Shown here one piece after another: positions 8,269 to 39,414 of a DNA stretch of 39,414 nucleotides. This stretch comes from a virus, in IMG/VR virus record IMGVR_UViG_3300039191_000190, positions 1-39,414 of that record; one strand, written 5' to 3'. Within the stretch, counting starts at the first letter, position 1. Every line of letters begins with the position of its first letter. A model generated the notes under the pieces. The model made no database searches. It was not told the origin of the DNA and saw only the letters and a list, made by a program, of their open reading frames with translations. The position numbers and the translations under genes are program-made.

Positions 8269-9279
8269 ATGAAAAGACTATTTAATAGATCAGCGCAAAA
8301 CGCTCAGAAAATAACAGAAGTTGACAACACAAGCGATGCGGATAAACCAGTCAGCACGGCTCAGCAGACAGCACTCTCCAGCAAGCTGCCAAAAGAGAGC
8401 ATCAATGGTTTTAAGGTGGCAACTACTGTTGGGACAAGTCCGGCAATTTACAACATTACTGATCCTGACTTAGGTTTTTCAATACAAAGTGATTTTGCGG
8501 GTGAAACCTATTACGTCTTGGAAAATGCTACAGTAGACGGTATTGTCCACATTAAAGCAACGGCAACAGGCAACAGTCGAATTTACCTAGATGGTTCTTC
8601 CACACAATACAAAGACCAATTCGGAAATTCGGTTGACTATGTTGATATACCTGCGGGTGGCATGTATAGTTTCATCCGCGCGAATGGCTTGTGGTCTGCA
8701 TTAAATGCTAGTGATCCAAGTAAGGCACCTATAGATAGCACTGTTAATCTTACAGGAGATCAGACCATTGCGGACGACAAGACATTCACTGGTCAGACGG
8801 AGATGCCTAATCAAGAGGCTCTCACTGATGACTCGCCGATGACTAGAGGGTTGATTGCTGACCTAGAAATTTATCAAACTAAAACGATTGCTGCTGGGTT
8901 TGTTACTGTAGGAGGTTCAGCGGCTGTGGTGTCGGTTGGATTTAAAGACAATGGGCTACAGTCTCTGAGCAATGACGCCGCCGCGCGTGTTTGTTATTTA
9001 GATGTAGTCAGTTACTATCCCGCCGGAGGAGCTGGAATAGTGCGATATGCTAGATACATTTTATCAGGTCGATATATTGGTAGCGGAAATTTTGAATCAA
9101 ATACCTTGGAAATATCTAACGTTAGCGAAACGGGGTCAGCAACTATAATAGCGCCAGGTAAGACTGTATCTGGACAGAGCACGGTAGACGTGACCATCAC
9201 CCCGCCTGCTTCTGGCACAGGAACTGTGCGCTCTTATATCATAAAAATAACACCAATAACTATTCCAGTATCTTGGTAA
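8269..9279 (+). CDS. tail-fibre-like protein, 336 aa
   Basis: It contains 'VDNTSDADKPVSTAQQTAL' near residue 18, the 'v.NTsDadKPvSta...al' motif that recurs in phage tail-fibre proteins, and a second, weaker one ('PNQEALTDDSPMTRGLI'). The C-terminal 130 residues are Ser/Thr/Gly-rich and beta-type, as expected for a fibre tip or shaft. A receptor-binding or fibre role is likely. Beta-rich domains also occur in non-fibre virion proteins, so this stays a family-level call. Confidence 0.65.
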   Translation: MKRLFNRSAQNAQKITEVDNTSDADKPVSTAQQTALSSKLPKESINGFKVATTVGTSPAIYNITDPDLGFSIQSDFAGETYYVLENATVDGIVHIKATATGNSRIYLDGSSTQYKDQFGNSVDYVDIPAGGMYSFIRANGLWSALNASDPSKAPIDSTVNLTGDQTIADDKTFTGQTEMPNQEALTDDSPMTRGLIADLEIYQTKTIAAGFVTVGGSAAVVSVGFKDNGLQSLSNDAAARVCYLDVVSYYPAGGAGIVRYARYILSGRYIGSGNFESNTLEISNVSETGSATIIAPGKTVSGQSTVDVTITPPASGTGTVRSYIIKITPITIPVSW

Positions 9280-12162: not shown

Positions 12163-12882
12163 ATGCCTACTGCAACTGCTTTCATGTCCCATAGTTTGAC
12201 TAATTATCCAGAATGTTTCACTAAGACAGATGTGTCTGGTTATGACTACTGGACTACCATGTCTGGATTCAACAAGAGCAGTGGCGGCACTCCGACTACC
12301 GCTCAAATAGATGACTCACTAGCTTTGGCATATAACTTTTTCTGGAACTTTTACGCAATTAGGGTTTATGGTGAAGCAACGCAGGATTTCGGGACGTTGA
12401 AATCCTCATCACTTTCTCCAGCGGATGCCTCAGATGTATCAGGAGATGATAACGCAGAACCATCAACTAGAGTCTGCTCAAGTCCCTATGTCTATGTTAA
12501 AAACAACAGCTCACCAACTGGGACTAATTGCAAGATAGCTGGAGGGGCTGAGAGGATCAGGAGATTTTACGATGGCGACACCACGGACGAAGCAAATTTC
12601 GTAGGTTACGGGATGCTGGGGTATTTATTTGATCTGTATTGCACGGCAGGATCGTCTAATTACGCTTCTGAAATAAGGCTCTACGGCGTAGGTGACACCA
12701 CCACGGGACTCTATGCCACAGACTACACGGAGATTGACGGGTATCACTTTGTTTGTAGAGCTAAAGGCTACACCACAAGGGATGCGGCGAATGCGTCTGC
12801 AAGTAGTGTCTACGCTACCGCGCCGCTCGGATACAACACAAGCGCATCGATTGACTCGCTAGAATTTTACACTTACGCTTAA
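12163..12882 (+). CDS. hypothetical tail-associated protein, 239 aa
   Basis: It starts two bases after the collagen-like gene. It is Ser/Thr/Tyr/Gly-rich with several aromatic clusters ('YNFFWNFYAIRVYGEATQDFG', described in part) and five cysteines, and ends in 'SASIDSLEFYTYA'. The composition is like an extracellular beta protein such as a fibre tip. No Pfam-type motif recognised. Placement between a fibre stalk gene and the nozzle gene supports a virion role; a fibre-tip partner of the collagen-like protein is a guess. Confidence 0.6.
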   Translation: MPTATAFMSHSLTNYPECFTKTDVSGYDYWTTMSGFNKSSGGTPTTAQIDDSLALAYNFFWNFYAIRVYGEATQDFGTLKSSSLSPADASDVSGDDNAEPSTRVCSSPYVYVKNNSSPTGTNCKIAGGAERIRRFYDGDTTDEANFVGYGMLGYLFDLYCTAGSSNYASEIRLYGVGDTTTGLYATDYTEIDGYHFVCRAKGYTTRDAANASASSVYATAPLGYNTSASIDSLEFYTYA

Positions 12883-12897
12883 ATTTAAAAAAACATT

Positions 12898-15444
12898 ATG
12901 CAAGGATTCAACTCAGGAACATTAGCACCTTGGCTAGATTCAAGGCACGACATAGACAAATACCAGCGTGGGCTGAGAATTTGCAGAAACTTCGTGGTTA
13001 CTCCTTATGGTGGAATACGTAGGAGGCACGGAACGGAGTTTATGCGCGAGGCACTATCTGGTGATTCAAGATTGATCAGCTTTCAGCCTACTAGTGAAGA
13101 GGGATTCATTATCGAGATAGGTAATGAGTCTGTGAGGGTTTATGATAAAGGAGTGTTAGATGAAACTATCGCTTCACCCTGGTTATCCTCTGAGGTCTTT
13201 GAATTACAATGGGAGCAGTTAAATGATGTGATGTTTATTACTCACAAGAATCACCCTCCGCAACAACTCAATAGGATAACAGGTGGGTGGTCATTTGGCC
13301 CAGTGGTTTTTGATTATCCACCATTTTTAGATTATGTCCTAGATGGCACTGAAGTTGAGGTTACAGCGGGGGGAAGCACTGATATTGAAAGTGAAACAAC
13401 ACTAAGCGCTGAAGACTCTGAAAATAATGCTTATAGCGGAGTTGTTCCATCTGGTGATTGGGAGGTTGTTACAACTACTAATTCTGGGTCCTCATTAGTC
13501 CAGGATAAACTTTCGTTAGAAAAATCTTTGGATGGAGGAAATACATGGGAAGAGATCCAGACTATTGAAGGGACTGGAGCAGAAACAGGTTCAGAGGGTG
13601 GGGGGTTGCTTAGACTCCATTCTGAAGAAGCTAATATCGAGGCTACATTAACCACGACCAATTCATCTGCTAATTTAGCAGTCGGTGGCGCGGTTACGAT
13701 AACAAGCACCGATGATATTTTTGAAACTTCTCACATAGGTAGTGAATTTGAGGTTACTCATCCACTAGAGAAAAGTGAAATGAGACTAGCGCTTAACTCA
13801 AGTGGCACAAGTGAAGGTATCACTGTTCAAGGAGATTATCTTTTAACTACTAGCGGTCTATGGAAAGGCAAAGTTACAATAGAGAATAGTTTAGACTCTG
13901 GCGCAACATGGAACAGCGTTGTTGTCCGCGAGGCTTTCGGGGATCGTAATATTAGTTACGAAGGTTTCCAGAACCAGAAGGCTTTGATGAGGATACTCTT
14001 TTCCAGATCTGGTGCTGGTGCAAATAATCCACACGCTACGCTTGAGGCGATAGAGTCGCAAGTTTCTGGCAGAGTTAAGATAACAGGATTCACTAGCTCT
14101 ACAGTGGTCACTGGGTCTGTTGTTGATGGTATTTACAGCGAGGAATCAACTGAGCTGTGGAAGCATGCGGCATGGAGTGGTAGACAAGGATACCCAGCAG
14201 CGGTTTGTTGGCATGATCAGCGGGTTTGGTATGGAGGCAGTTGGTTTCAACCATCTACATTATGGGCATCAGTGATCGAGGATTTCTTTAATTTCAGAGC
14301 AACTACATTGGACGATGCTTCATTTAGTAGGCGTATCGCTGCGAATGAGCAGTCAGATATACGATGGTTGGCATCTAAACAATATTTATTCATTGGAACT
14401 GGTGGAGCGGAATGGCGCGGATCTAGTGATTCAGATAGCGGAGTCATTACACCAAGTTCATTTAGAGTAAGTAAGTTTTCATCATTCGGATCAGCATCTT
14501 TACCAGCGGTCATCACTGGTTCAAACATGCTCTACATTCAGAGACAGGGGAGAAAGGTTCGTGAGATTTCTTATACGCTAGATTCTGATGGCTACAGCGC
14601 TGCGGATCTCACATTATTATCGATCCATTCGACAATGACTGGGATCAAAGATGTAGCTTATCAAGCTCAACGAGATTCTGTTTTATGGGCGACTACAAAT
14701 TGCGGTAGATTGGTTGGGTTGACCTACGATAAATCGCAGAATGTTTACGCCTGGCACACTCACACAACTAAAGGAGAATATGAATCTGTGGCTACTGTTT
14801 ATGAGCAAGGTGATGAGGATAGCATTTACTGCATTGTTAAACGCGATGGCGTGAGGATGCTAGAAAGATTCCAGCCTGAGCAGTATGAAGTGATTGAAGA
14901 GAGCGTTTTGCAAGATATGCTCTTTATGGATTCCGCTGTGATTTACGATGGCGATGCTACTACTACGCTGAGCGGGTTTGATCACTTAGAAGGTGAAACT
15001 GTTCAAGTATTAGCAGACGGGTCTTATGTAGGCGATAAGGTGGTTGCTAGTGGGGAGATCACCTTAGACGTTGCCGCATCGAAAATCAAAGCTGGATTAG
15101 AATTTTTATCTTTAATCGAGACAATGCCGATGAATTATCAAGGCACTGATGGGAAATTTAAGAAAGTTTCAGCGGTAAGCATTAGAGTTTGGCGTTCTGT
15201 ATCTGCTGAGTTTGCGCCTAATCAGAGGTTTGATAACTGGCAGAAAATTGATCAAGGGCAGCGCAAGTGGGTTGATCTTGACGAGCAGCCAGATCCAGAT
15301 GATATTGGTAGCTTCGAAGATTGGAAAGTCTCACTCGATGGCGGTCATGATCGTGATGCCAGGTGCGCGGTTCGTATCACTGAACCTTACCCATTAAATA
15401 TTTTATCCTTAACTCCTGATATAAAAGTAACTCAAGACATATGA
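12898..15444 (+). CDS. tail tubular protein B (T7 gp12-like nozzle)
   Basis: An 848-residue tail nozzle protein. The N-terminal 'FNSGTLAPWLDSRHDIDKYQRG' plus 'CRNFVVTPYGGIRRRHGTEF' is the conserved start of the family ('nf.gGelsp.l.gR.Dl.ky..g...l.NfiV.p.Gg..rRpGt.fv'). Further support comes from 'AWSGRQGYPAAVCWHDQRVWYGGS' and 'DFFNF' in the middle. Residues about 150-420 are a Ser/Thr-rich beta insertion not usual in T7 gp12, possibly extra surface domains. It overlaps the next gene by four bases (ATGA at 15441). Confidence 0.9.
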   Translation: MQGFNSGTLAPWLDSRHDIDKYQRGLRICRNFVVTPYGGIRRRHGTEFMREALSGDSRLISFQPTSEEGFIIEIGNESVRVYDKGVLDETIASPWLSSEVFELQWEQLNDVMFITHKNHPPQQLNRITGGWSFGPVVFDYPPFLDYVLDGTEVEVTAGGSTDIESETTLSAEDSENNAYSGVVPSGDWEVVTTTNSGSSLVQDKLSLEKSLDGGNTWEEIQTIEGTGAETGSEGGGLLRLHSEEANIEATLTTTNSSANLAVGGAVTITSTDDIFETSHIGSEFEVTHPLEKSEMRLALNSSGTSEGITVQGDYLLTTSGLWKGKVTIENSLDSGATWNSVVVREAFGDRNISYEGFQNQKALMRILFSRSGAGANNPHATLEAIESQVSGRVKITGFTSSTVVTGSVVDGIYSEESTELWKHAAWSGRQGYPAAVCWHDQRVWYGGSWFQPSTLWASVIEDFFNFRATTLDDASFSRRIAANEQSDIRWLASKQYLFIGTGGAEWRGSSDSDSGVITPSSFRVSKFSSFGSASLPAVITGSNMLYIQRQGRKVREISYTLDSDGYSAADLTLLSIHSTMTGIKDVAYQAQRDSVLWATTNCGRLVGLTYDKSQNVYAWHTHTTKGEYESVATVYEQGDEDSIYCIVKRDGVRMLERFQPEQYEVIEESVLQDMLFMDSAVIYDGDATTTLSGFDHLEGETVQVLADGSYVGDKVVASGEITLDVAASKIKAGLEFLSLIETMPMNYQGTDGKFKKVSAVSIRVWRSVSAEFAPNQRFDNWQKIDQGQRKWVDLDEQPDPDDIGSFEDWKVSLDGGHDRDARCAVRITEPYPLNILSLTPDIKVTQDI

Positions 15445-27975: not shown

Positions 27976-28932
27976 ATGGATAAACAAGAATTAGCGGTCA
28001 ATCCGCAAACACAGACAGGAATCAGCGTATTTGATTCGGGTGCATTTGAACAAATGTGGGCGGTAGCTGATGCAATCGCACAATCTAGCCTAGTGCCAGT
28101 ATCGCTACAAGGTAAGACTCCACAGGAAACAAAAGCTAACTGCCTAAGAGTAGTTGAACAGTCTCAGCGTTGGGGGTTCTCTCCGTTCGCTGTGCTTGAT
28201 TGCGCCTCAGTGGTGCATGGGAAATTAATGTGGGAAGGCAAACTCGTATCTGCCGCTGTATCGGCATTACTTGGGTTTAGACTTGATTACAAGTATTCTG
28301 GCAGTGGTCAGAATCTGACGGTCATCGTGAGTGGTAAATTTCCCGATGAGGAAGAAGCGAGGACGGTGCAAGGTAGTGTTGCAGATTGGAAAACCACAGG
28401 CAAAGGATCACCGTGGGATAAGACTAGCCAGCATGAGCAGATGCTCGCTTACCGTGGGGCGAGAGAGTGGGCGAGAAGACATTCACCTGGGACTATCCTT
28501 GGTGTTTACTCACCTGATGAGTTTGATGAGTCTGAGACGCGCAATGTGACTCCAGCCAGTAGAGGATTACAAGAGCGTGAAGTTAAGATTGATCCAAAAG
28601 CTAAAGAAGCAGAGGCAGCCAAGGAGAAAGAAACCACCGTAGCAGAGCCCGAAGGTAGACAGAAAAAGAAGCGTTATACCACCGCCGCGAAAATGGTGAG
28701 CGTGGTCGAAAAAAGCACCGAAAAAGGCAAGGTTTTCTTTGTGATAACCTTAGATAATGGTCAAAAGACATCGGACCTCATTACTTTTAGCCAGACTCAG
28801 GGAAAAAATCTCAGGGAGTTGGATAAAGGCACGATGCTCGATATAGTCTTTACTGCATCGGAGAAAGGTCAGTTGAGCTTAGAATCTTACGAGATAGCAG
28901 GAAATGAATCTGAAGAAGGAGGGCTAGTCTAA
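27976..28932 (+). CDS. recT: RecT-family single-strand annealing protein
   Basis: A 318-residue annealing protein that pairs complementary strands exposed by the YqaJ exonuclease encoded downstream. 'CLRVVEQSQRWGFSPFAVLDCASVVHGKLMWEGKLVSAAV' (described in part) matches the RecT 'c...a..lg..P..al..i..i.GK....g.....' core, followed by 'QHEQMLAYRGAREWARRHSPGTILGVYSPDE', the 'ml..ra...a.r...P..l.G.yt.eE' end. The last 120 residues are a low-complexity linker plus a small beta domain not part of the RecT core. It overlaps the next start by one base (TAATG). Recombination by such systems tolerates short homologies. Confidence 0.85.
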   Translation: MDKQELAVNPQTQTGISVFDSGAFEQMWAVADAIAQSSLVPVSLQGKTPQETKANCLRVVEQSQRWGFSPFAVLDCASVVHGKLMWEGKLVSAAVSALLGFRLDYKYSGSGQNLTVIVSGKFPDEEEARTVQGSVADWKTTGKGSPWDKTSQHEQMLAYRGAREWARRHSPGTILGVYSPDEFDESETRNVTPASRGLQEREVKIDPKAKEAEAAKEKETTVAEPEGRQKKKRYTTAAKMVSVVEKSTEKGKVFFVITLDNGQKTSDLITFSQTQGKNLRELDKGTMLDIVFTASEKGQLSLESYEIAGNESEEGGLV

Positions 28933-29945
28933 TGAAAAATCAAGAATTAGAAGTAGTGCCAACCGCTACAACCGCTTTGACTATCGCTGTGAAAGGTGAA
29001 GTGCTGAGCTCAAACTTTGTGGATTACGAGAAATTTGTCATCGCTAGGGTTGAGTCTGTAAACGTGAACCTAAAAACTCCAGAGGATGTAGAGCAGGGCA
29101 AACTTGATAGCAAAGAATTGAAGGCATTTGTGGCTGACCTCGATGAGAAGGCTGACAATGCTTACAAGGAATTGAACCAGGTCTATATGCTCATGCAAGG
29201 TATTAAGCGACTAAAAGGATCTGCCGATGAGAAGCGTATTGCGATCGATCGTAAGGTCAAAGAGATTTCCGCGAAGATTAAGCAGGATTTAATCGATGCT
29301 GGCATTGCTAATCTTGAGTTAAATACTCCTGCAAATCGCCTCGCTGTGAAAAACGCAACTAATCGCAAAAGCTCACCACTTAAAATGAGTGAGGCGATTG
29401 ACGATGTAGTTGGGTCAATCAACCTAGCAGTTCAGAGCAACCGTAAAGCCATCGATGCTTGCAAAGAAAAGCATGGTGACGCGATTGGCTACGATGAGCA
29501 CACGTTGCTTTGCATGACTCCAGAAATGCTAGTTGTGGAGCTAGAGCGTAGGATTGAGCGCCAAGCTCAGGCTGTGGAGAAGGCGAAGCTACAAGCGAAG
29601 CTAGACGCAGAAAAGATAGCTAAGGATGAAGCGGAGGCCATAGCTAGGCAGAATGAGCGAGATATGTTTAAGCCAAGCGAGGGGGTAAATAAGACAAGCA
29701 GTGAAATCGTTGATACCCCTAGCGTTAAAGCTCCTGAACCAGAGATTGAGACAGTACAAGCTAAGACAGAAAACGAAACCGCTGAGCAGGAAATGGAGAG
29801 ATTCATGGAGGTAGTGCCAAGCGCATTTGCTCCAGTCAAGGCAGCTAGATCAGCATTAAAACACCCAGAAAACATTGAGGCCGCGGGCGAGTTCGCTCAG
29901 TCTCTCGGTGCGGCATGGAACAAACTAAAAACACCAACTAAATAA
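28932..29945 (+). CDS. DUF1351-like recombination-associated protein
   Basis: A 337-residue coiled-coil protein between recT and the exonuclease. 'ELKAFVADLDEKADNAYKEL' and later 'ERQAQAVEKAKLQAKLDAEK' are long charged helices. DUF1351-type proteins sit in this place in many siphophage and podophage recombination operons and are thought to support the annealing reaction. The last 100 residues are Glu/Ala-rich and likely disordered. The family call is by layout and neighbours; the two genes flanking it are firm. Confidence 0.55.
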   Translation: MKNQELEVVPTATTALTIAVKGEVLSSNFVDYEKFVIARVESVNVNLKTPEDVEQGKLDSKELKAFVADLDEKADNAYKELNQVYMLMQGIKRLKGSADEKRIAIDRKVKEISAKIKQDLIDAGIANLELNTPANRLAVKNATNRKSSPLKMSEAIDDVVGSINLAVQSNRKAIDACKEKHGDAIGYDEHTLLCMTPEMLVVELERRIERQAQAVEKAKLQAKLDAEKIAKDEAEAIARQNERDMFKPSEGVNKTSSEIVDTPSVKAPEPEIETVQAKTENETAEQEMERFMEVVPSAFAPVKAARSALKHPENIEAAGEFAQSLGAAWNKLKTPTK

Positions 29946-34813: not shown

Positions 34814-34866
34814 ATGACTCAAAACGTAAATACACCCAGAGAATCGGATACTGCGATTTGTTCGCC
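34814..34866 (+). repeat. attC right half-site at the 5' edge of the array
   Basis: It has the A-rich spacer, 'GATACTGCGATTTG' and the R' core GTTCGCC (34860-34866), but the preceding bases are the end of a phage gene with no TAACGTC arm or L'' element. It is therefore a half-site, not a full attC. Either the array lost its first cassette by deletion, or the phage carries a fixed docking sequence equivalent to attI. Confidence 0.6.
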
Positions 34867-35050
34867 TTTTGTTGTTGGTGATCCCGTTGACATCTCTCGC
34901 TGGAATCAAGCGACGAATAAAGGGAGCGGCATCGGTGACACTGGAATAGTCGTGAGAGTGTGGCGAGATAAATGCTCGTCTGGAATAATGATAAAAGTAA
35001 GAGGCAAAGGGACTGTAGAAATTGACTCTCAATGGGCATCCCACCTTTAG
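34814..35050 (+). CDS. cassette C1 gene: SH3-like small protein
   Basis: A 78-residue protein whose ATG lies in the half-site; the first 16 codons come from the attC-like sequence and the rest from cassette C1 (34861-35099). 'VGDPVDISRWNQATNKGSG', then 'IGDTGIVVRVWRDKCSSGIM' and 'KGTVEIDSQWASHL' is a repeated beta-strand pattern like small SH3-like barrels ('vGD.V........G.iG..G.V..v....i.v...g'). The stop codon (TAG) ends at the first base of R''. Function unknown. Confidence 0.6.
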   Translation: MTQNVNTPRESDTAICSPFVVGDPVDISRWNQATNKGSGIGDTGIVVRVWRDKCSSGIMIKVRGKGTVEIDSQWASHL

Positions 35051-35105
35051 CCTAACGCCAAAGCATAGGTGCGCCGTAGGCGTTAGGTAATCTGATTTGT
35101 TCGTT
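35050..35105 (+). repeat. attC1 (short form, 56 bp)
   Basis: R'' GCCTAAC at 35050-35056, a hairpin core CGCC-GTA-GGCG and R' GTTCGTT at 35099-35105. This R'' matches its own cassette start (GTTCGCC) only 5/7, the poorest in the array. It instead matches an inner GTTAGGT at 35081-35087 at 6/7. The variable spacer is almost absent, unlike attC2 and most later sites. Confidence 0.75.
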
Positions 35106-35195
35106 TTGCATTTAATTAGAGAAAAGTGAATAAAGATTGAAATAAAGGTTGCGTTAAATCAAACAGCGTGCATAATAGGGACATGACAAACCAAA
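35062..35195 (+). repeat. 134-bp duplicated segment, copy 1 (attC right part plus cassette promoter)
   Basis: It aligns without gaps to 35890-36023, with about 20 differences counted by eye (about 85% identity). It spans the attC right arm, the crossover point and the promoter up to the first codons of the cassette gene (ATGACAAACCAAA). The differences cluster at the inner core-like bases and near the -35 boxes. Confidence 0.85.
35149..35182 (+). promoter_or_regulatory. cassette C2 promoter (leaderless geometry)
   Basis: TTGCGT at 35149-35154, a 16-base spacer and CATAAT at 35171-35176; ATG follows six bases later at 35183. The predicted transcript starts at or beside the ATG. The AGGGAC between the two is too close to the ATG to act as a ribosome binding site. 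It is an own-promoter cassette, as expected for toxin-antitoxin cassettes. Confidence 0.55.
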
Positions 35196-35359
35196 AGAGA
35201 GAGATCAAGTTCAGTGTAACAAAAGCAGGTCAAATTCAAGCTTTTGAATATAAAAGGAATCAAGCCCGTTGGATGAGATTAAAACTAAGTGACGCTGAAA
35301 CAGCAGTGGCTAACGGAGAAGCTAAAGTATATGAGCCAAGAGCAAACAACATCTACTAG
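35183..35359 (+). CDS. cassette C2 gene 1: small basic protein (toxin-like position)
   Basis: A 58-residue protein from the ATG at 35183; a GTG 15 bases earlier in frame overlaps the promoter and is less likely. It begins MTNQKREIKFSVTKAGQIQA and ends 'EAKVYEPRANNIY'. The start 'MTNQ' is shared with the C4 gene. Mixed strand-helix pattern; no toxin family recognised. It overlaps the next gene by 29 bases, so the two are translated as a pair. The toxin role is an inference from layout. Confidence 0.5.
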   Translation: MTNQKREIKFSVTKAGQIQAFEYKRNQARWMRLKLSDAETAVANGEAKVYEPRANNIY

Positions 35360-35528: not shown

Positions 35529-35643
35529 ACGAACGTCTAAGAACACCGCCACCACCCACAGAGGCGGATAAACCAAACAACCAACTAATAACCTAACAAC
35601 CCAGAAGACACGCCGTGGTGGCCGAGTGCTTCGTTTGTTATCC
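35528..35643 (+). repeat. attC2
   Basis: R'' AACGAAC (35528-35534), matching the start of its own cassette GTTCGTT (35099) at 7/7; R' GTTATCC (35637-35643). The left inner arm 'CCGCCACCAC' pairs with the right 'GTGGTGGCC'. Total 116 bp with an A-rich spacer lacking an in-frame ATG for the next gene. Confidence 0.88.
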
Positions 35644-35652
35644 ACTATAATT

Positions 35653-35883
35653 ATGAACATTAAAGAACTTAAAGAAAAAATAAAAGACTTACCAGACGAA
35701 ATGACCGTAGCACAGCATCATCCAGATGATTGGTCTGCTGGTGAAATATGTCATATAGCCACAGTTATAGTCGATATCAGGGAATTAAACTTACTGACAC
35801 ACAGGTGGGAATTAGTGAAAAAGAGAAGTCTTTTTATTGGCGATAAATGCAAGGAGACAAAAGAGATATTGCTCATAGGATAA
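35653..35883 (+). CDS. cassette C3 gene: 76-aa hypothetical
   Basis: I use the ATG at 35653, 16 bases into cassette C3, rather than an upstream GTG in the attC. It reads MNIKELKEKIKDLPDEMTVA, then 'HHPDDWSAGEICHIATVIVD' and a basic end. 'i..LPddm.V' openings are common in small phage and cassette proteins. The TAA lies inside R'' (GGATAAC). Cassette size 290 bp; no promoter seen inside. Confidence 0.65.
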   Translation: MNIKELKEKIKDLPDEMTVAQHHPDDWSAGEICHIATVIVDIRELNLLTHRWELVKKRSLFIGDKCKETKEILLIG

Positions 35884-35933
35884 CGTCTCAGCATAGGTGC
35901 GCCGTAGGCGTTATCTGCTCTGATTTGTTCGTT
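35878..35933 (+). repeat. attC3 (short form, 56 bp)
   Basis: R'' GGATAAC (35878-35884) matches its own cassette start GTTATCC (35637) at 7/7; R' GTTCGTT (35927-35933). Nearly identical to attC1 outside the R'' and inner core-like bases. The inner GTTATCT again follows R'' (6/7). Confidence 0.85.
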
Positions 35934-36023
35934 TTGGATTTAATTTGAGAAAAGTGAAGAAACATTGAAATAGTGCTAGACATAAATCAAATCAAGTGCA
36001 TAATAAGGACATGACAAACCAAA
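35890..36023 (+). repeat. 134-bp duplicated segment, copy 2
   Basis: Partner of 35062-35195, same length with no gaps. It carries the attC3 right part, the crossover at 35927/35928 and the C4 promoter. Because the similarity crosses a cassette boundary, it is not explained by homology of one cassette alone. Confidence 0.85.
35977..36010 (+). promoter_or_regulatory. cassette C4 promoter (leaderless geometry)
   Basis: TAGACA at 35977-35982, a 16-base spacer and CATAAT at 35999-36004, with the ATG at 36011 six bases after the -10. Same design as the C2 promoter. Confidence 0.55.
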
Positions 36024-36387: not shown

Positions 36388-36509
36388 ACGAACGTCCTCA
36401 ATCTAGCCGCCACCACCTCAGAGACTGCCACCGAAACCATGAAACTAAACACAACCAAAAATCTAACTATACGCCAGCCGTGGTGGTCGGCTGCGATGTG
36501 TTGTTATAC
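36387..36509 (+). repeat. attC4
   Basis: R'' AACGAAC (36387-36393) matches its own cassette start GTTCGTT (35927) at 7/7; R' GTTATAC (36503-36509). Left 'TAGCCGCCACCAC' pairs with right 'GTGGTGGTCGGCTG'. An ATG at 36439 in the spacer is in frame with the next gene. Confidence 0.88.
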
Positions 36510-36516
36510 ATCTATT

Positions 36517-37026
36517 ATGAGAGCATTACCAACGATATACAAAGGCAAAGAATACAGAAGCAGCACAGAAGCAAGATGGCACGCATATTTTGATCTGATA
36601 GGGTTTGAAGTTGAGCATGAGCATGATGCTTATTGTATAAATGGTAGGAATTATCTACCTGACTTCCAAAGTAAAAAAGGGGCTTTTTGGGGTTATGCAG
36701 ATAAATCAAAACAAATACCATGGTTTATTGAGGTCAAAGGGTGTATTGATGATGCTTTAGATAATTATCAGTTAATGCAGGAGTTTAGTGAGGAAACTCA
36801 ATCACTCGTGCAAATAGTTTGGGGTAAACCTTCTTGTAAACCTTTCCCCACATGGATCAAAGGTGAAGAGGTGTGTCCATCGTCCCTTACTTATTACGGT
36901 TTCACGCAAAAAGGATGGGATCAGCCTCAGTTTAATCCTGATGAGTATGAGAGTGATGGTGATTCTAATGTGCTTGATATACTTAGGTGCGCCAGAAGAA
37001 CCAGAAAAGGTGAACTTTTAGTATAA
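36517..37026 (+). CDS. cassette C5 gene: PD-(D/E)XK-like nuclease
   Basis: A 169-residue protein from the ATG at 36517; an in-frame ATG in the upstream attC (36439) would add 26 residues. It has 'YRSSTEARWHAYFDLIGFEV' (Glu18), 'RNYLPDF' (Asp49) and 'WFIEVKG' (Glu72-x-Lys74), the order of phage PD-(D/E)XK nuclease-like proteins ('fRS..EArWa.ff...G....YEp......YlPDF........EvKg'). All expected acidic and Lys residues are present. The stop lies inside R''. Substrate unknown; it is the only clear enzyme in the array. Confidence 0.7.
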   Translation: MRALPTIYKGKEYRSSTEARWHAYFDLIGFEVEHEHDAYCINGRNYLPDFQSKKGAFWGYADKSKQIPWFIEVKGCIDDALDNYQLMQEFSEETQSLVQIVWGKPSCKPFPTWIKGEEVCPSSLTYYGFTQKGWDQPQFNPDEYESDGDSNVLDILRCARRTRKGELLV

Positions 37027-37146
37027 CGCCCTCAAGTGACCGCCACGACTAGACACCCCAAGACAATAAACCACAACCGATACAAACTAACCTAACAACC
37101 TTGAGCGACCTGCGCCGTAGTGGTCGAGTCCACTGCGTTGTTCGCC
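37021..37146 (+). repeat. attC5
   Basis: R'' GTATAAC (37021-37027) matches its own cassette start GTTATAC (36503) at 7/7; R' GTTCGCC (37140-37146). Left 'GACCGCCAC' pairs with right 'GTGGTCGAG' imperfectly. 126 bp. Confidence 0.88.
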
Positions 37147-37380: not shown

Positions 37381-37469
37381 GCGAACGTCTTAGGATAGCC
37401 ACGCCGAACGGAAGACACAGAACCAAAAACTAGGGCAACAGAGGGGTTGGATAATCCGACTTGATATGC
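37380..37469 (+). repeat. attC6 with an unusual GAT core
   Basis: R'' GGCGAAC (37380-37386) matches its own cassette start GTTCGCC (37140) at 7/7. The right core is GATATGC (37463-37469) instead of GTT-type. The right arm is weaker ('GGTTGGATAATCCGACTT') and the spacer is short (90 bp total). The next gene's ATG lies inside this core. Confidence 0.75.
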
Positions 37470-37705: not shown

Positions 37706-37817
37706 GTATATCGTCTCAAGACAGCCACCAGCGCAAGACATGGATGAATCAACAAACAAATAACCACGAATAAACGCTGCTACGCCCTAGCTGGTCGGCT
37801 GATCTGCGTTGTTAGAT
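37706..37817 (+). repeat. attC7
   Basis: R'' GTATATC (37706-37712) pairs with its own cassette start GATATGC (37463) at 6/7, so the unusual ATC/GAT is kept on both sides. R' GTTAGAT (37811-37817). Left 'ACAGCCACCAGC' pairs with right 'GCTGGTCGGCTG'. Typical spacer. Confidence 0.85.
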
Positions 37818-38107: not shown

Positions 38108-38219
38108 ATCTAACGTCTAAAGATAGCCACTGGTGCAACGCTCCGCCTAACCTAAGAGCGACTAACTAAACACAAACTAAAACACGCCCTAGCCAGTTGG
38201 CTACTCTGATTTGTTAGGG
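38108..38219 (+). repeat. attC8
   Basis: R'' ATCTAAC (38108-38114) matches its own cassette start GTTAGAT (37811) at 7/7; R' GTTAGGG (38213-38219). Left 'GATAGCCACTGG' pairs with right 'CCAGTTGGCTAC'. It is the cleanest consensus site in the array. Confidence 0.9.
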
Positions 38220-38236
38220 TTTAACTAGAAAATATT

Positions 38237-38377
38237 ATGAAAAGTAAACCAGACATCGAACAAGAAAAAGAGCAGTTTATTATAAAATGGTGTAGCGACC
38301 GAGCATTAGATGCAAAGGATGAAGTTAATAGAAGCAATGCGTTAGACGCATGGAATGTGAAAGTTCTATTCTTTTAG
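38237..38377 (+). CDS. cassette C9 gene: 46-aa hypothetical
   Basis: ATG at 38237, reading MKSKPDIEQEKEQFIIKWCS and ending 'WNVKVLFF'. A small charged helical protein. Its TAG ends on the first base of R''. The cassette is 269 bp and nothing else fits in it. No family recognised. Confidence 0.55.
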   Translation: MKSKPDIEQEKEQFIIKWCSDRALDAKDEVNRSNALDAWNVKVLFF

Positions 38378-38488
38378 CCTAACGTCATAAGTGAGCCGCC
38401 TCTGACAAATATAAACTAACCTAAAAATATGGAACAAAAAATAAACACTACTACGCCCAAAGAGGTCGGCTCCGCTGATTTGTTATAC
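38377..38488 (+). repeat. attC9
   Basis: R'' GCCTAAC (38377-38383) pairs with its own cassette start GTTAGGG (38213) at 6/7; R' GTTATAC (38482-38488). The left 'GAGCCGCCTCTG' pairs with right 'AGAGGTCGGCTC'. The spacer carries ATG at 38429 in frame with the next gene. Confidence 0.88.
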
Positions 38489-38656
38489 CGTTGCGAGAAA
38501 AAAGCATTGAAGTTATTTTACGGTGAGAGGGGAGACCTGAAAGTATGGGAGTGCCGCGCTGAAATAGAGAAAGAGTTCGGCAAGGATGTAGTAAACGAAA
38601 TGATGCGTAATGGGATAGGTGGTAATAAAGGGAAAAATTGGAATCCTACATCTTAG
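38429..38656 (+). CDS. cassette C10 gene with attC-encoded N-terminus
   Basis: A 75-residue protein. The ATG at 38429 lies in the spacer of attC9; the first 18 codons (MEQKINTTTPKEVGSADL) come from the upstream cassette's attC. The cassette-derived part is 'LYRCEKKALKLFYGERGDLK' onward, ending 'NGIGGNKGKNWNPTS'. The only later in-frame ATG would leave about 15 residues, so the attC start (or a TTG at the junction) is needed. The stop ends on the first base of R''. No family recognised. Confidence 0.6.
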   Translation: MEQKINTTTPKEVGSADLLYRCEKKALKLFYGERGDLKVWECRAEIEKEFGKDVVNEMMRNGIGGNKGKNWNPTS

Positions 38657-38777
38657 TATAACGTCCAAGCATAGCCACCGACCAACAATAACATATGAAA
38701 ACACCAACAGAAAACTTACCTCCAGAAAACTCCGTGGAAGCCAGCCCAGGGCGGTTGGCTACTGCGGCTTGTTATGT
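38656..38777 (+). repeat. attC10
   Basis: R'' GTATAAC (38656-38662) matches its own cassette start GTTATAC (38482) at 7/7; R' GTTATGT (38771-38777). Left 'CATAGCCACCGACC' pairs with right 'GGGCGGTTGGCTAC'. The spacer carries ATG at 38695. Confidence 0.88.
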
Positions 38778-38958
38778 TTGGAAACCTATTGATGCAGATG
38801 CAAAAAAAGGAACCGTGCTTTTGGGTAGAGCAGGCAGGGAGCCTATTATGGACTTTTGGCTAGAATATGGGAATTGGTGCAGGTGGCGACACAGTGACAG
38901 CTCTGGATGCGGTAACTTCCCTCCCACGCACTATATGCCAATCAAAGAATTACTTTAA
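38695..38958 (+). CDS. cassette C11 gene: DUF551-like protein with attC-encoded N-terminus
   Basis: An 87-residue protein. The first 25 residues come from attC10, reading MKTPTENLPPENSVEASPGR onward; the junction codon is Cys26. The cassette part is 'WKPIDADAKKGTVLLGRAGR', ending 'NFPPTHYMPIKELL'. A start with 'W.pi.dapk.g..vll' and an end with 'PTHwmPl' is the pattern of DUF551, a small domain frequent in phage accessory regions. Function of DUF551 is unknown. The stop (TAA) ends on the first base of R''. Confidence 0.65.
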   Translation: MKTPTENLPPENSVEASPGRLATAACYVWKPIDADAKKGTVLLGRAGREPIMDFWLEYGNWCRWRHSDSSGCGNFPPTHYMPIKELL

Positions 38959-39078
38959 TATAACGTCAAAGCATAACGCCGCATCGAGTGGCATAGAATA
39001 GAAAAAAATATGGGAAATAAAGAAGAAATTAAAACAGGCGAACACGCCGTAGCGGTCGATTACTGCGATTTGTTAGAT
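38958..39078 (+). repeat. attC11
   Basis: R'' ATATAAC (38958-38964) pairs with its own cassette start GTTATGT (38771) at 6/7; R' GTTAGAT (39072-39078). Left 'CATAACGCCGC' and right 'GTAGCGGTCGAT' pair imperfectly. The spacer carries ATG at 39010. Confidence 0.85.
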
Positions 39079-39285
39079 TGTCCATTTTGCGGTAAGATCG
39101 AGGCGGAAGATTATGATTTCCCCGCGACTATTTACAACGGATCAGATCAATTTACAGATAGGTATGAGCGCGGAAATCCACCTTATTACATTCAGTGTGA
39201 GCATTGCTTAGGGAGAGGGCCAACGGCTGACAACCCTGTAGATGCTTCAAAATGGTGGAATGACCGCAAGACATGTAAATCTTAA
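39010..39285 (+). CDS. cassette C12 gene: Lar-like zinc protein with attC-encoded N-terminus
   Basis: A 91-residue protein; the first 21 residues (MGNKEEIKTGEHAVAVDYCD plus Leu) come from attC11. The cassette part has 'CPFCG' (Cys24, Cys27), 'YYIQCEHCLGRGPTADNPVD' (Cys63, Cys66) and 'ASKWWNDR', the Lar restriction-alleviation pattern ('CPFCGg...v.C..CgarGp......Ai..WN.R'), more complete than in C8. The first cysteine pair starts two codons after the junction, so the cassette still encodes the whole domain. Anti-restriction is inferred from family resemblance. Confidence 0.7.
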   Translation: MGNKEEIKTGEHAVAVDYCDLLDCPFCGKIEAEDYDFPATIYNGSDQFTDRYERGNPPYYIQCEHCLGRGPTADNPVDASKWWNDRKTCKS

Positions 39286-39412
39286 TCTAACGTCTAAAGA
39301 TAGCTACCCCGAAAACCAAACAACTAAATAGAAACGAAATAATATGGAAAACGAAAATACTACTATTAAACCCTCCGACTCCGAGGGGGTTAGATACTCT
39401 GATTTGTTAGCT
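39285..39412 (+). repeat. attC12
   Basis: R'' ATCTAAC (39285-39291) matches its own cassette start GTTAGAT (39072) at 7/7; R' GTTAGCT (39406-39412). The left inner arm 'GATAGCTACCCC' pairs with right 'GGGGGTTAGATAC' imperfectly. The spacer contains an ATG at 39344. Confidence 0.85.
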
Positions 39413-39414
39413 TT
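39344..39414 (+). CDS. start of cassette C13 gene (partial, attC-encoded N-terminus)
   Basis: ATG at 39344 in the attC12 spacer gives MENENTTIKPSDSEGVRYSD and then Leu-Leu-Ala up to the window end, open at the 3' edge. The crossover lies after base 39406, so nearly all visible codons belong to attC12. If the window is circular, this frame continues from base 1 and stops at 65-67, giving a protein of about 45 residues. Confidence 0.45.
   Translation, partial: MENENTTIKPSDSEGVRYSDLLA

Follow-up and report, generated by a model that had tools for sequence, protein, structure and literature searches.

Integron-like cassettes with probable start codons inside attC-type sites

At the end of this phage record lies an array of small genes separated by attC-type sites, and several of the genes appear to begin inside the site that precedes them. 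We favour the reading that these are inverted cassettes, in which an attC with a start codon in its spacer sits in front of the gene, leader and gene form one unit, and the crossover falls at the left box; we give this a probability of about 0.7. The phage would thus carry a cluster of integron-type cassettes with no integrase in the record and with genes pointing opposite to normal relative to attC, so that each attC would stand 5′ of the gene it belongs to. About half of the cassettes would have an A-rich translation start in the apical spacer of the hairpin, and ribosomes starting at this ATG would cross the right arm and the box before reaching the cassette body, which adds a leader of 16–29 residues. 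Crossover at AA^CG of the left box would move start codon, leader and gene together and keep the frame. The scheme supposes that ribosomes do start at the spacer ATG, that the cassettes are mobilised in trans by an integrase and that the leader either does no harm or is trimmed. It draws on site anatomy, reading frames, start context, polarity marks and shared blocks, as observed in two arrays with three shared cassettes.

The window, i.e. the whole stretch of DNA analysed, is a 39,414-base virus record from IMG/VR with terminase, portal, head and tail genes. RecT/RecE-like, YqaJ and RusA genes come after the tail genes and before the array, which extends from about 34.8 kb to the record end. 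The array sites are imperfect palindromes with R and L box pairs and GTT/AAC boxes, as in integron attC. Their canonical attC reading is on the minus strand. Besides those in front of C1 and C10 to C13, sites extend from left to right box at 35054-35101, 35532-35639, 35882-35929, 36391-36505, 37025-37142, 37384-37465, 37710-37813 and 38112-38215. No Rfam family matched anywhere in the window.

We scanned IMG/VR with the site patterns and with the TerL, Lar and C1 proteins. The scans yielded a single further array, on a 50-kb contig (L008/G002; IMGVR_UViG_3300031607_000005) that otherwise has little in common with the window, the two phages being unrelated. It encodes proteins related to C1 (94 % identity over 62 residues past the junction) and to the Lar-like C12 (93 % identity). 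The Phage_integrase profile matched neither in the window nor in the G002 record, both of which are perhaps incomplete, and no attI was noticed in the sequence present in either contig; as the record ends are open, this negative does not extend to an attI near terS. A complete integron with intI and attI was thus found in neither record. A terL relative (L001/G001) showed no array on a contig that stops 0.5 kb upstream of terL. The array had no match among plasmids and only one weak 35-nt match among phages. Other candidates (L002-L007, L009-L015, L018-L021, L028-L032 and L035) were discarded as chance pattern matches, being lone sites, scoring low or lacking attC anatomy. The genome of one of them (L029; G004, Terriglobia) contained 76 integron-integrase-like matches, none above the curated cut-off and many without profile positions about 178-233. 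Outside the array, positions 8317-8795 of the window share 93 % identity over 479 bp with the start of the G002 contig.

Spacer ATGs and reading frames

For each site we tabulated the spacer ATGs, their frame and the frames open past the right-hand GTT box. ATGs in frame with the following gene and open through the right arm were found at 34814 (C1), 38429 (C10), 38695 (C11), 39010 (C12) and 39344 (C13), lying 15.7, 18.0, 25.7, 21.0 and 21.0 codons before the junction, respectively. The frames hence bear out the earlier note, which had proposed that these five genes begin in the preceding spacer and read through the right arm. It had also placed the G of GTT at the third codon base in C10, C12 and C13 and at the second in C1 and C11, and this holds. 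In C1, C10, C11 and C12 the frame is open across the junction and has no ATG of its own in the first 25 codons. The next in-frame ATG in the cassette body comes 42 codons past the junction in C1, 39 in C10 and 25 in C11, and the body of C12 has none, in agreement with the claim that C10, C11 and C12 have no other good in-frame ATG.

The C1 gene (34814..35050, plus strand like all genes given below) starts within the half-site leader 34814-34860. The C10 ORF (38429..38656, 75 aa) has its box junction after residue 18 and the C11 ORF (38695..38958) encodes 87 aa; the C12 ORF (39010..39285) encodes a candidate Lar-like restriction alleviation protein. C13 has the same form but runs off the record after its leader (39344..39414). 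When this segment is joined to positions 1-67 of the window, the ORF extends and closes after 45 aa, and only then, a hint that the genome may be circular or permuted. One further cassette, at 36503, was absent from the earlier note and has both an in-frame spacer ATG (36439) and an ATG of its own (36517). The second array contains the same two types. In four of its cassettes (C1, C2, Lar and C6) the frame passes the junction without a stop, and an in-frame ATG is present in the spacer but absent from the first 25 codons of the cassette; the methyltransferase cassette has an ATG in both places.

We infer that translation starts at the spacer ATGs. The attC-type site would then provide the start codon and the first 16–29 residues, so that translation start, leader and recombination site overlap, as the earlier note had predicted.

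Excess over chance and start context

In both arrays together, an in-frame spacer ATG was present in all 8 cassettes without a near ATG, but at none of the 11 sites that precede self-starting cassettes. We assessed chance by shuffling each spacer with dinucleotides kept and counting spacer ATGs only. An open in-frame ATG appeared in 8–25 % of the shuffles per site (P 0.08–0.25); multiplied together, these values give 3.8e-6 over the seven independent start-less cassettes. When the two cassettes that also have an ATG of their own are added, making nine, the product falls to 4.5e-8.

Shine-Dalgarno-like motifs were seen in only 6 of 35 window genes, and the start context is A-rich. We trained a start-context score on 35 further window genes and ranked ATGs against a background of 818 others; the ten leader ATGs fell at the 94.6–100th percentile, at least as high as real phage genes. 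In-frame ATGs in the arms reached the 1.5–10th percentile, and arms and closed spacer ATGs together the 1.5–68th. The RNA folding z-scores of the sites ranged from +1.0 to -2.2, and because of this span fold energy was left out as evidence.

Translation might instead start at a TTG or GTG at or just past the junction, the spacer ATGs being incidental to A-richness. In C10, C12, C13 and C2 of the second array the right arm does end in an in-frame TTG, and at or near the junctions of C10 and C12 this codon could initiate. The TTG is, however, out of frame for C1, C11 and C6 of the second array, and both the frame excess of the spacer ATGs and their start context speak against it. So does the count of stops in the leaders, which is 0 for the reading frame used and 19 and 14 for the two alternatives, even if the leaders were chosen partly for openness. 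We consider this alternative improbable.

In bacterial arrays the survey covered 102 canonical-direction and 7 reversed cassettes. Eight of the 102 had a frame that was open across the junction but contained no ATG within 20 codons, and for two of these eight the attC upstream contained one in frame. None of the 7 reversed genes started in its own attC.

Polarity of the sites and probable position of the crossover

The polarity of attC is set by its extrahelical bases. We aligned both arms of each site using one script for the phage sites and for a control of 153 sites from 19 bacterial arrays adjoining integron integrases. In the control the extra bases were in the left arm at 136 of the 153 sites, in the right arm at 12 and equal at 5. 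Of the 16 scorable phage sites, 15 had them in the right arm and none in the left; they are confined to one arm, as in attC, but with respect to the direction of the genes it is the opposite arm. The box flanks behave likewise. Read on the minus strand, 16 of 19 phage sites start with AACAA and 17 of 19 end with [AG]CGTT, the flanks seen at 103 and 117 of the 153 control sites. As extra bases and flanks are both reversed, array and genes point in opposite directions, and the polarity marks place attC 5′ of the gene rather than 3′ of it as in a canonical cassette.

When extrahelical bases were moved to the other arm, the recombination point moved to the other R box (PMC2727003). With the polarity reversed, the crossover probably falls at the left box, AA^CG, and leader and gene would travel together. 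The boxes flanking a gene also match at 7.6 of 8 nt within such a unit, compared with 4.9 across one site and 5.2 at random, as in a gene cassette whose two end boxes derive from one attC.

The cassettes can be redefined on this basis. C10 would span 38383..38661, comprising left arm, spacer, right arm, gene and the ending AA of the next box, with boundaries set by polarity; C11, with putative limits of the same kind, would span 38662..38963 and comprise attC, leader and gene. C12 would occupy 38964..39290, a block common to the second array from the left arm through its own 3′ box, and C13, truncated by the record end, 39291..39414 with attC and leader. In the inverted reading the C5 cassette would cover 36393..37026, with attC, the leader ATG at 36439 and the gene's own ATG at 36517. 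Given a left-box cut, C10, C11 and C12 would each be a complete gene, with its start and its stop codon inside a single unit, and their frames would agree without any need for luck.

The earlier note had assigned each site to the upstream cassette, with crossover at G^TT, so that shuffling would bring new start codons and N-termini. C1 favours this model, having two different leaders, both in frame, in the two phages; moreover, the C1 and C6 leaders of the second array both end in APMRSNTAIC before different genes. The model is contradicted by the reversed extrahelical bases and box flanks, and the match of every frame would be unlikely if sites and genes assorted freely. Among the three cassettes shared by the two phages, the arms upstream of the gene are shared in two and the downstream arms in none. 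We regard the model as unlikely: a crossover at the G of the right box is probably wrong, and the polarity and shared-block ends lend no support to a leader that belongs to the neighbouring cassette. Since leader and gene would form one unit, N-termini would not be expected to be swapped, or frames broken, at each shuffle; C1 with its two leaders is the exception.

Blocks shared by the two phages

The blocks common to both phages run between successive left boxes. The Lar block begins just past the left box of the site upstream and stops at the left box that closes its own 3′ end, and the genes upstream of it differ. Both ends of the C4/C7 promoter cassette behave in the same way. The C1 block ends at a left box, and its upstream half-site differs between the phages. 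In this small sample of three shared cassettes, the block ends are as the inverted unit would predict; homologous recombination at the repeats could leave similar ends.

At C1 the upstream site is a half-site only. The leaders MTQNVNTPRESDTAIC and MTEPQENLATPAPMRSNTAIC precede the same SPFVVGD body in the two phages, and the gene body is 94 % identical although the leaders differ. Leader replacement has therefore happened at that half-site, and an exchange near the C1 junction is conceivable.

The sites could also be fossil attC, with cassettes exchanged by homologous recombination at the repeated arms, for example by RecT/RecE-type proteins; the start codons within the sites would still be real. 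Such proteins are encoded at 27976-29945, 5–7 kb 5′ of the array, and an integrase gene was found in neither contig. The shared blocks are mosaic as well: a 100 % identical leader stands beside a diverged gene body. The box match within units and the retained asymmetry of the hairpins are, however, better explained by recognition by an integrase, and we deem the fossil explanation rather less likely than inverted, integrase-mobilised cassettes, if still a serious one.

Three cassettes have in common a short hairpin site with promoter-like sequence after it (TTGAAA/TAGACA ... CATAAT), at 35046-35196 and 35893-36013 in the window and at 12798-12932 in the second array. The C4 copy is 97.5 % identical to the copy in the second array over 121 bp.

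Comparison with known systems

Cassettes of normal integrons need an outside promoter and have attC behind the gene. If the inverted reading is true, attC in front of the gene, providing both the translation start and the N-terminal codons, would be another way to express mobile genes, and a recombination site maintained for how it folds would be recruitable as coding sequence. More tentatively, attC might have become a built-in 5′ expression part in a phage lineage, where start-less coding fragments captured downstream of it would gain an A-rich landing loop for ribosomes, a start codon and a generic hydrophilic leader; the coding strand would be the recombining strand, and mRNA and folded DNA would share the hairpin.

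The CALIN (attC clusters without an integrase) of phages also have several attC-type sites, small cassettes, DNA methyltransferase cargo and no integrase gene (PMC9892861). However, those of Tetrasphaera phage TJE1 and Pseudoalteromonas phage PH101 show the typical integron structure (PMC9892861), whereas here all genes oppose attC and many seem to start inside it. In ORF-11/ORF-18 of the class 1 integron attI1, translation likewise runs from a recombination site across the crossover into the cassette (PMC8876359). There, a short peptide stops in or near the cassette box and aids re-initiation, while here the frame runs on into the gene, whose N-terminus it would form, and the site is attC, not attI. 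In fused cassettes, e.g. blaGES-1/aacA4, expression of the cassette gene similarly relies on sequence at the 5′ boundary, but the fusions arise by loss of attC (PMC4670013), and here the site is intact. Our literature search found no paper on attC-encoded start codons, although such may still exist.

Putative Lar-type domain and cargo

The putative Lar-type domain of C12 begins at residue 20 (PF14354, Pfam) or 21 (TIGR03655, NCBIfam); codon 21 also contains the junction. The E-values are 4e-5 and 3e-5, respectively, both matches lying under the curated cut-offs. As the domain starts at the junction, the cassette body contains the domain but no start. Another protein with weak similarity to Lar (phrog_6422, E 0.008) is encoded by C8 (37851-38102), which has its own ATG. 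Across both phages the cargo includes two Lar-like proteins and one DNA methyltransferase, which suggests that anti-restriction genes are exchanged between unrelated phages.
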